Shown here one piece after another: positions 27,250-30,383 of a stretch of DNA of 64,000 bases; the first letter of the stretch is position 1; each line of letters opens with the position of its first letter. Position numbers and translations under genes: made by a program. The stretch lies in NCBI GenBank assembly GCA_023255955.1, contig JAGDWD010000007.1:135929-199928 (forward strand), read 5' to 3'. This stretch comes from Desulfurococcales archaeon. GTDB lineage: Archaea; Thermoproteota; Thermoprotei_A; Sulfolobales; NBVN01. The notes under the pieces were generated by a model. The model searched no databases, had not been told where the DNA came from, and saw only the letters and a list, made by a program, of their open reading frames with translations.

Positions 27250-28584
27250 ATGGGAGCCTTGAAGTACACGACGATAATAAAGGATCCTATTCATGGCTAC
27301 ATAAGACTGTACGAACATGAGAAATGTCTGATAGATACTGCCCCCTTCCAGAGATTGAGAAGGATATCCCAGCTTCCTACCTCTCAATATGTCTACCCTT
27401 CAGCGAATCACACACGGTTCTCTCACTCTCTCGGTGTAATGTATGTTTCCGGGGTATTCGCGGAGAACCTGTACTCAGATGAAGACGAGGTGGAGAGCTC
27501 AGAAAGGAGTAGGTTGCTTGTAGTAGCGAGGCTTATAGGTCTTCTACACGACATAGGTCATGGTCCTTTCTCACATACATTTGAAGACCACGTTCTGATT
27601 CCCCGCGGATTAAACCACGAAGTTATGGGTGGTAAAATCGTTAGGGAACACCCGGAGATAGTTAGGTGCTTCGAGAAATGTATTGAGAAGGAATTTAATG
27701 TGAGTGTAGAGCATGTCTCTAAAGCAATAGAGTCACCTGTCTTAGAGACTTGGCCGTTCCGCTCTAAGGTAGGTAACGTCAGTGAAGTCCCGCTCTACTA
27801 CGTTATTAAGGGCCCCTACAGTGCTGACATAATAGACTACCTACTCAGAGACTCTTACTTCACTGGTGCTAACTACGGGCTCGGGCTTGACTGGACAAGA
27901 CTCGCTTACCACTCTAAGATAGTTGGGGACTCGTTGGTACTAGAGTACAAGGCTAGGGACGTACTAGACCATTTACTTCTAGCTAGACTATATATGTTTA
28001 AGACAGTCTACTACCACAAAACTTCAAGAGCTTTCGATAAGGTCCTAGGCACAATTCTTCAGAAAACTGAGCAAGTGCTAAGGATTCCGGAGGCTCTAGA
28101 GCAACCAGAACTATATACAGAGCTGGACGATAGCTATGTTTTAGCTAATCCAGATATAAGAAAACTTGAAGAGGCTAGGTACGTACTTAACCGTATAATC
28201 CCCTACAAACTTGTTTATGAAATAATACAACCCCTAGAAAAGGTCTCGTCTACTCTAATAAAAATAGGAAGGAGCTTAATAGAAGGGATAATAAAGGAAG
28301 AATTCAGTAAGTTAGCCGGGGCTCTCGATGATGAAGCCGTATTTGTTGATAGCCCGAGACTACCAACAAACCCCATGTTTGAAGAAGCCGAGATAAGTAT
28401 ACTTAAACCGGATGGATCCATAACTAAAACCCCTATAAGGGAGACCGTAGCCGGTATTATGCCACACGAAGTGAATTTCTTCCGTGTATACCTGCACAGG
28501 AAACATATAGATTATTTAGATAGGCTTAGGACGCGTGTGACCGCTCTCTTCGGTAGTGCTGACGAACTAAGACCGTTCTACTAG
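27250..28584 (+). CDS. HD-domain phosphohydrolase (SAMHD1/dGTPase-like)
   Basis: A 444-residue metal-dependent phosphohydrolase. Ligand motifs: RFSHSLGVMYVSG (His59), LLHDIGHGPFSHTFE (His100, Asp101) and SADIIDYLLRDSYFTG, which supplies the distal Asp. The N-terminal IKDPIHGYIRLYEHE and FQRLRRISQLP are typical of the group that includes SAMHD1 and archaeal dNTP triphosphohydrolases. The likely job is hydrolysis of (d)NTPs or related nucleotides. The substrate is not determined by sequence. It is coupled to the DUF2070 gene. Confidence 0.88.
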   Translation: MGALKYTTIIKDPIHGYIRLYEHEKCLIDTAPFQRLRRISQLPTSQYVYPSANHTRFSHSLGVMYVSGVFAENLYSDEDEVESSERSRLLVVARLIGLLHDIGHGPFSHTFEDHVLIPRGLNHEVMGGKIVREHPEIVRCFEKCIEKEFNVSVEHVSKAIESPVLETWPFRSKVGNVSEVPLYYVIKGPYSADIIDYLLRDSYFTGANYGLGLDWTRLAYHSKIVGDSLVLEYKARDVLDHLLLARLYMFKTVYYHKTSRAFDKVLGTILQKTEQVLRIPEALEQPELYTELDDSYVLANPDIRKLEEARYVLNRIIPYKLVYEIIQPLEKVSSTLIKIGRSLIEGIIKEEFSKLAGALDDEAVFVDSPRLPTNPMFEEAEISILKPDGSITKTPIRETVAGIMPHEVNFFRVYLHRKHIDYLDRLRTRVTALFGSADELRPFY

Positions 28585-28991
28585 TGAGTATAGCATAGCT
28601 ACCGTTTGTCCCTAGATGCTCGTTGATGTGGGTTTATGTTTGTTTATTGTGTCTAGGGACTTCCACCTCGTCCACAGGGTTTTCCCTACCCCTGTGGGTC
28701 ATGGGCGGCTGTCGAGCCCAACGGCATGGGGCTCCCATCTACGTCTAACCCCGCAGAGCTCGGAGCATTGCTCCCATCACTCAGCAGGGTGTCCAAGCTA
28801 CCTACAGGAATGAAGTTAATAAGTCTAACATATAACCCCAGAGCACAGCAACCCTAAAAACCATAAACACAACGACCACTAATCAAAAACAGAACAGCCC
28901 TACTCACAATTCTGGTTTCCCGGAGCTGAGGGAGTTCAGTACAACGAGTTGTGGATTATACTTGTTAACGTTTTTAGTCTAAGCTACTCTT
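28585..28991. other. Long intergenic region between the HD and glycerate kinase genes
   Basis: The left 230 bp hold the structured element described separately. The right part (28821-28991) is AC-rich on the plus strand, without palindromes or a convincing frame, and should contain the promoter of the glycerate kinase gene. Confidence 0.5.
28600..28820 (-). other. Highly structured non-coding stretch, possible IS200/IS605 TnpB 3'-end/omega-RNA relic
   Basis: Four perfect inverted repeats lie close together: GTCCCTAGA/TCTAGGGAC (28608-28616, 28652-28660), CCACAGGG/CCCTGTGG (28672-28679, 28690-28697), GAGCCC/GGGCTC (28714-28719, 28729-28734) and GGAGC/GCTCC (28762-28766, 28770-28774). It is far more GC-rich than other spacers here. 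On the minus strand an open frame of about 40 codons ends at a stop near 28687 (..GSPMPLGSTAAHDPQG), followed by GGTGGAAGTCCCT. That mix of protein tail, hairpins and GGTGGAAG is what I would expect at the right end of a TnpB element. No TnpB catalytic part remains. A stable housekeeping ncRNA is the alternative. Confidence 0.4.
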
Positions 28992-30383
28992 GTGGTTATG
29001 GAACTTAGGATGTCTGTCCACTTAAGGGAGGGCTTGATAAAGAATCGGGATATGCTAGCTAGGACTAAGCTACATTTAGATGTTCTTGAGGTTCTTGAAG
29101 TAGGGCTTGCCGCAGCAAATCCGAGAACGGCTGTCAAGAACTTTATTTCACTGAGAGGGGATACTCTGTGTTTCCGAGATGAGTGCTTCCGTTTTAATGG
29201 TAGGGTCCATGTCGTAGGCTTTGGGAAAGCTGGAGCGGGTATGGCCCTGGGCTGCGAAGACTCCTTAGGGGATGTCATTGTAGGTGGTGTAGTTATAGTT
29301 CCCACACTCGATGTCCACGAGAAACCTAGGAAGATATTACTAGTTGAAGGAGATCATCCAATACCCAAAGAAAAAACCCTCAAGGCAAGCCAGGCTCTGG
29401 TCTCATACGTACAGGAGAACGTAAAGGAGGGTGACACAGTAATCGTCCTAATCTCCGGTGGAGGATCAGCCCTCTTCGAGATACCCTACCCACCCCTAAC
29501 CTTAGAAGATGTAGCTATAACGACACGTAACCTCATGCGAGCTGGAGCCGACATAATCGAGCTCAACACTGTCCGCAAGCACATCAGCCATGTTAAGGGA
29601 GGGAGATTCATAAGGTTCCTCGAGAAGGCAGGTGCTGTGTTCTCTCTAATAGTGTCCGACGTTGTAGGTGATCCCCCGGAGTTCATCGCTTCAGGACCTA
29701 CAGAAGCTGATACTACGACCTTCAAGGATGCTTACGAAGTCCTCCAAAGAAGGAGGGTGTGGGATCAACTACCGGACAGAGTTAAGGACTTAATACTCGC
29801 AGGTGTTCGTGGGGAAATACCGGAGACGCTGAAACCGGGTGATAGACTCCTCACTAAGGTCAAGAACTTTATTGTAGCAAGTAACTCGATATCTCTTGAG
29901 AGAATGAAGATCAGAGCAGCTGAGCTCGGATATAGAGTAACGATACTCACATCTATGATGGTCGGGGAAGCTAGGGAGGTGGGTAAGTTCCTAGGGGGTG
30001 TAGCCAAACACCTTACTAAATATAAGAATCCCGGGGAGAAGATAATGATACTTCTAGGTGGGGAAACTACGGTCACAGTCCAAGGTAACGGTGTCGGAGG
30101 TAGGAATCAGGAGCTCTGTGTAGGGTTTTCACTATCTGTTCGAGGTCTAGGTAATGTTGTGCTAGCATCTATAGGTACGGATGGAGTAGACGGTAACAGC
30201 CCAGCAGCAGGAGGGATATGTGATGGCTACCTGGTGGATGAGGCTGTAAAGTTAGGTATGGACCCACACAGGTACCTACTCGACAACGATACATACACAT
30301 TACTTAAATTCTTAGGGAGGGCCATAGTAACCGGCCCTACTGGTACAAACGTCAATGACTTAGTAGTAATTGCTGTGGAGTAG
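28992..30383 (+). CDS. Glycerate 2-kinase (GckA/MOFRL family)
   Basis: A 463-residue two-domain kinase of the DUF4147-MOFRL family, which phosphorylates D-glycerate to 2-phosphoglycerate in archaeal non-phosphorylated or semi-phosphorylated sugar breakdown. Seen: HVVGFGKAGAGMALG near residue 72, VEGDHPIPKEKTLKAS, VLISGGGSALFEIPYPPLTLEDV, LNTVRKHISHVKGGRF, SDVVGDPPEFIASGPT, and the C-terminal GVGGRNQELC, SIGTDGVDGNSPAAG and VTGPTGTNVNDLVV motifs. Several starts are possible (GTG 28992, ATG 28998, ATG 29010). Confidence 0.93.
   Translation: MVMELRMSVHLREGLIKNRDMLARTKLHLDVLEVLEVGLAAANPRTAVKNFISLRGDTLCFRDECFRFNGRVHVVGFGKAGAGMALGCEDSLGDVIVGGVVIVPTLDVHEKPRKILLVEGDHPIPKEKTLKASQALVSYVQENVKEGDTVIVLISGGGSALFEIPYPPLTLEDVAITTRNLMRAGADIIELNTVRKHISHVKGGRFIRFLEKAGAVFSLIVSDVVGDPPEFIASGPTEADTTTFKDAYEVLQRRRVWDQLPDRVKDLILAGVRGEIPETLKPGDRLLTKVKNFIVASNSISLERMKIRAAELGYRVTILTSMMVGEAREVGKFLGGVAKHLTKYKNPGEKIMILLGGETTVTVQGNGVGGRNQELCVGFSLSVRGLGNVVLASIGTDGVDGNSPAAGGICDGYLVDEAVKLGMDPHRYLLDNDTYTLLKFLGRAIVTGPTGTNVNDLVVIAVE

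Follow-up and report, generated by a model that had tools for sequence, protein, structure and literature searches.

Positions 28602-28900 of the window (the whole 64,000-nt stretch of DNA analysed, from a Desulfurococcales archaeon) are occupied, on the minus strand, by a 299-bp internal-deletion derivative (MITE) of an IS607-family transposon, and not of an IS200/IS605 element. The locus is almost certainly an IS607 MITE with a complete TnpB guide-RNA scaffold, and we consider it probable that this archaeal MITE, made of a left end (LE), a TATA-like box, a complete omega-RNA and a right end (RE), uses TnpA and TnpB in trans. The element is located between an HD-domain gene (27250-28584, plus strand) and a glycerate 2-kinase-like gene (28992-30383, plus strand). 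The hairpins that a preliminary description had reported at 28600-28820 are indeed there, but they are just a part of the unit, whose features are as follows.

28602-28900 (-), whole non-autonomous element, 299 bp, with ends taken from 22 aligned copies with unrelated flanks
28857-28900 (-), LE, first letters GGGCTGTTCTGTTTTTGATT, common to the LE of a TnpA-bearing copy on contig C10
28861-28867 (-), putative LE box TTTATGG, at element position 34
28791-28856 (-), MITE-specific leader; a 77-nt query gave 23 matches in the own genome, every one at MITE copies
28816-28823 (-), TATA-like box CTTATTAA, a putative promoter 25 nt ahead of the first stem
28602-28794 (-), predicted omega-RNA scaffold (fold z -3.8; covariation over 27 homologues), with a predicted start near 28794
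28748-28790 (-), Helix 1, 28780-28790 with 28748-28758, enclosing 28770-28774 with 28762-28766; 8/11 outer pairs double-changed in alignment A1
28714-28734 (-), Helix 2, 28729-28734 with 28714-28719; 5/6 pairs double-changed
28671-28698 (-), Helix 3, 28690-28698 with 28671-28679; 5/9 pairs double-changed
28608-28660 (-), Helix 4, the long-range right-end stem, 28649-28660 with 28608-28619; 7/12 pairs double-changed
28686-28781 (-), TnpB C-terminal frame remnant, shortened in the window copy, matched by tblastn to TnpB residues 374-422
28602-28610 (-), RE terminus GACAAACGG with the GG dinucleotide, from the aligned copies and the RE pattern
28582-28601 (-), predicted guide, i.e., the host DNA directly past the RE, assigned by position, which overlaps the HD-domain gene at its stop codon

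The query 28590-28900 retrieved 47 matching pieces from the own genome, many covering query positions 1-300. Twenty-two copies with an end-to-end BLAST match start with GGGCTGTTCT and finish with GACAAA(C/T)GG, with abrupt borders and unrelated flanks; the GG dinucleotide is present at both ends in all of them, and past the terminal GG(G) no fixed motif that might serve as a TAM was found to the left of the element. Alignment A2 contains these 22 and one more copy, two of its rows being clipped by 1-2 bases at an end. Patterns written for the two ends matched the own genome 33 times for LE and 44 times for RE, with 0 matches for the reversed-pattern controls. Within 3 kb, 26 LE-RE pairs were formed, 25 spanning 259-320 bp and one 466 bp, with none of the 26 below 259 nt, and 7 LE and 18 RE were left unpaired. 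We are thus dealing with a multicopy, non-autonomous mobile element having its own left end, and not with a relic outliving its nuclease gene as had been supposed. The HD gene is followed by such an element in none of six congeners, but their downstream DNA differs and provides no exact empty site.

The two 259-bp copies show the plain plan and the longer ones add the leader, a stretch of about 66-77 nt that in this genome is restricted to the 23 long MITEs, is missing from both 259-bp copies and was found in none of the TnpB genes examined. A TnpB-like protein tail on the minus strand had been indicated previously and is present, but its frame stops about 20 nt short of GGTGGAAGTCCCT instead of just before it; in just 5 of the 21 own MITE copies read does this frame run to its usual end. 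The 466-bp copy on C10 and the copy at C1:256787 still have about 100 residues of TnpB and resemble intermediates. Some copies are rearranged internally: in L028 (C12:247518) and L030 (C3:89836) the loop of helix 3 is reversed (GGTTTTCCCTACC versus GGTAGGGAAAACC in the other copies), as if flipped between the inverted-repeat arms of that helix, and in the own copies L019, L020 and L021 the arms of helix 2 apparently derive from two sequence types, giving a mismatched stem, which points to recombination or gene conversion between copies. In the viral collection, GAGGTGGAAGTCCCTAGA has one exact match, at L148:3760-3777, on a virus-like contig (IMG/VR, 88 kb) in which an element of this type may be present.

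The partner TnpA and TnpB genes are also found in this genome. On contig C2, an IS607 TnpA of the serine-recombinase type (215 aa, NF033518, 239.7 bits, 1.6e-71, with a cut-off of 110 bits) precedes a TnpB of 435 aa, after which comes a like scaffold; the RE of this copy is a variant with two mismatches, and its LE was unmatched by the pattern. Two pieces are closer to the MITEs than the C2 copy: a matching LE with a TnpA that runs off contig C10 at its end, and the 3' end of a TnpB gene with which contig C3 opens, followed by the RE shared with the MITEs. The kinship with IS607 at both ends is thus seen on two separate pieces, the C10/C3-type copy being split by contig ends. Residues D191, E279 and D365, which we take to be the catalytic ones of TnpB, are invariant across four TnpBs. 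In 41 genomes, a match to the RE/omega-RNA and an IS607 TnpA were both present in 17 and both absent in 17, with one only in 4 and 3 (Fisher p 3e-5, kinship ignored). Assembly breaks fall within TnpA or TnpB genes at the C10 end, C3 start, C11 start and C4 end, and intact transposon copies are therefore probably under-counted. A search of solved structures with TnpB gave no match at E 0.001, and a PF07282 match at C12:367283 was discarded as a TnpB, being below the family cut-off and beside an ORF that, in our reading, resembles a radical-SAM protein.

The right-hand 190 nt or so of the element, running to the RE, is a homologue of the scaffold at TnpB 3' ends. The hairpins are real and belong to the minus strand: its fold reaches -78.5 kcal/mol versus a shuffle mean of -62.5 (z -3.8) and beats 200 of 200 shuffles, the plus-strand fold being weaker (z -1.8, with 7/200 shuffles equally good). 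Perfect inverted repeats of 9 bp (28608-28616/28652-28660) and 8 bp (28672-28679/28690-28697) were found, together with GAGCCC/GGGCTC (28729-28734/28714-28719) and a GGAGC/GCTCC repeat lying within an outer stem. Alignment A1 was composed of the window sequence, 20 TnpB-linked and 6 TnpB-less sequences (L058, L061, L065, L067, L068, L072), that is 27 of the 29 full-length sequences among 65 loci with any match, the near-identical L089 and L111 being omitted. Across its five helices, 93.4% of 1160 pair cells are standard versus 79.6% in shuffles, both sides are changed in 26 of 43 pairs versus 17.2, and the covariation score is 0.396 versus 0.146, falling to 0.030-0.096 when partners are slid by 1-3 columns. 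RNAalifold applied to A1 returned the same stems and an extra closing stem (47 pairs, 27 double-changed). In a set of 26 TnpB-less sequences picked by eye (23 of the 37 TnpB-less copies from other genomes and three own ones), 88.9% of the cells are paired versus 76.0% in shuffles, again with 26/43 pairs double-changed. In the TnpB-bearing relatives the stems overlap the last tnpB codons, hence the sequence carries both messages. The preliminary reading is thus borne out where it takes the locus for a TnpB right end that retains the guide-RNA scaffold and what is left of the TnpB tail, given the homologous sequence at TnpB 3' ends, the covariation and the tblastn match of the tail; neither a lack of homologues beside TnpB nor a lack of stem covariation was observed.

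Outside the own genome, TnpB-less copies repeat one plan, namely LE, TATA-like box, omega-RNA and RE, in eight other genomes, an observation that is new. Scored right ends in 56 stretches from other genomes were split into TnpB-linked and TnpB-less copies, and in many of the latter the left end and a TATA-like box are soon followed by the first scaffold stem. Of 37 TnpB-less copies, 20, drawn from eight other genomes, open with an LE-like sequence and have a box 32-39 nt further in, and by the same pattern no LE-plus-box was found in the other 17, copies within one family not being independent in these counts and the wider box patterns, used here and for the RE scoring, being partly picked after inspection. 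A de novo promoter search in the upstream regions of 30 genes of the window returned no clear TATA motif, and a fixed 5-mer test was therefore used instead. The word TTATA occurs at -260 to -205 from the RE in 16/36 TnpB-less copies and in 1/12 TnpB-linked ones; the six other 55-nt bins have it in 0-4/36, and shuffles gave a mean of 4.3 with a maximum of 12 over 2000. In the own genome, a box-like sequence is placed 222-224 nt from the RE in 22/22 aligned copies, varying between copies and weak in several.

The TTTATGG of the window LE is a weak form of TTTATAA, a box that TnpA-bearing relatives have in nearly the same position. As the same box is present in the LE of TnpA-bearing copies, the simplest origin of the plan would be a deletion by which the guide RNA came to lie behind the promoter of the transposon itself. 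In two of the elements, L163 and L199, the scaffold is similar to the one that goes with a second subtype of TnpB (about 44% identity), which argues for a repeated origin.

If the copies in the own genome were selected for folding, an excess of pair-keeping changes would be expected. In 23 own copies, stem substitutions break a pair no less often than they preserve one: transitions of the pair-keeping type are 11 versus 15 of the breaking type, and 38 of the changed stem cells are still paired versus 42 unpaired, which counts against selection on these copies themselves. The recombinant, mismatched arms of helix 2 in several of them likewise weigh against it. Diversity among them is lowest in the last 20 nt and in the right-end stem (helix 4), and this can be explained by TnpA binding. 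Both observations suit an ordinary MITE kept for its DNA ends, in which TnpA needs the LE and a long RE and the folding is a useless leftover of the TnpB-bearing parent, a reading that we regard as possible though rather doubtful. It is at odds with the lack of any own LE-RE pair below 259 nt and does not predict by itself that MITEs of two TnpB subtypes, in several genomes, are cut immediately ahead of the first stem and have a comparably spaced TATA-like box. What speaks for a function of the omega-RNA is thus that the plan recurs and that shorter derivatives are lacking, and not purifying selection among the home copies.

The assignment to IS200/IS605 originally proposed does not hold, since the family is IS607, with its serine recombinase and GG ends, and 22 copies share no fixed left motif. 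Y1-transposase genes (IS200/IS605-type) do exist in the genome, at C9:6733-8240, C12:353205-354712 and C5:114759, two of them near TnpB genes. With these at hand, the minus-strand TnpB tail remnant and the right-end scaffold might be ascribed to the defunct remains of a single IS200/IS605 insertion, but we hold this to be very improbable: the 25 pairs of 259-320 bp refute it for copy number and, as to family, the matching TnpB adjoins a serine recombinase and not a Y1 transposase. The Y1 enzymes were rejected as partners, the TnpB at the C9 Y1 locus being just 25% identical to the IS607 one. Still less credible is an unrelated structured host RNA (orphan ncRNA) merely resembling TnpB ends, which would agree with Rfam giving no match at the locus at the gathering threshold and weak, far sub-threshold matches alone at lax ones, but is refuted by the homology to TnpB 3' ends, i.e., by direct TnpB parentage, and by the dispersed copies.

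Returning to the IS607 MITE working in trans, we infer its mode of action as follows. The TnpA of an IS607 copy elsewhere would move the MITE into GG sites; minus-strand transcription from the box would yield the scaffold of about 190 nt, reading through the RE into host DNA that would act as guide. TnpB supplied in trans might then load the MITE RNA and cut an unoccupied copy of the same site, and repair from the occupied copy would restore the element, to its own benefit. The use of 28582-28601 as guide is modelled on the passages of PMC10711439 dealing with the reRNA of IS607 TnpB. That the MITE is a mobile guide-RNA gene, driven by a promoter and served by TnpB in trans, appears likely enough to test.

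Guide RNAs (reRNA/omega-RNA) of IS607 TnpB are known from ISXfa1 (PMC10711439) and ISFba1 (PMC11061315), and in the passages concerned, as in our model, the RNA begins at the 3' end of TnpB, crosses the RE and continues into the flank, and the ends of IS607 elements recombine where their dinucleotides match. Unlike those RNAs, which are beside their own TnpB, the MITE is devoid of a nuclease gene and has a TATA-like box directly before the scaffold, the likeness concerning the layout of the RNA and the ends. In Staphylothermus marinus, passages of a 2009 paper (PMC2678158) describe MITEs of about 260 nt, in 14 copies flanked by inverted repeats, which resemble the region upstream of four transposase ORFs, the transposable elements of that genome being assigned to IS607. 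By this description they are, like ours, short archaeal non-autonomous elements linked to IS607, and the same passages make no mention of guide RNA. SMN1 of Sulfolobus islandicus, 320 bp and mobilised by the IS transposase ISC1733, is by description a crenarchaeal non-autonomous element of similar size, whose guide-RNA content is not described in the passages in question (PMC3718332). The PATEs of Haloquadratum walsbyi differ: the relevant passages of PMC3119063 derive them from IS605 and describe palindromes close to the termini, a target of 4-5 bp and, for some, a reduction to 52 bp.

Guide-RNA-only IS607 elements did not appear in the titles and abstract openings of the literature found, which covered few subscription papers. 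Within that same coverage, the joined reading of an IS607 MITE as a stand-alone guide gene was likewise not found. A 2023 study in Nature on TnpB and transposon spread may mention coding-free IS605 relatives with guide RNAs.

More broadly, and tentatively, since we rate this extension a little below an even chance, IS607 elements of these archaea may have repeatedly shed both genes to become promoter-driven mobile guide-RNA genes, which take their guides from the adjoining host DNA and, with TnpA and TnpB in trans, would cut empty copies and so protect their own site, one nuclease being served by dozens of self-acquired guides. Cas12 is considered to descend from TnpB. Should guide-RNA elements that stand alone thrive on a nuclease in trans, they would represent a natural intermediate between a one-guide transposon and a system of many guides with one nuclease, and there would be a reason for these MITEs to keep about 190 nt of the right end; with about 25 natural guides, a single small genome lends itself to testing retention by self-targeting.
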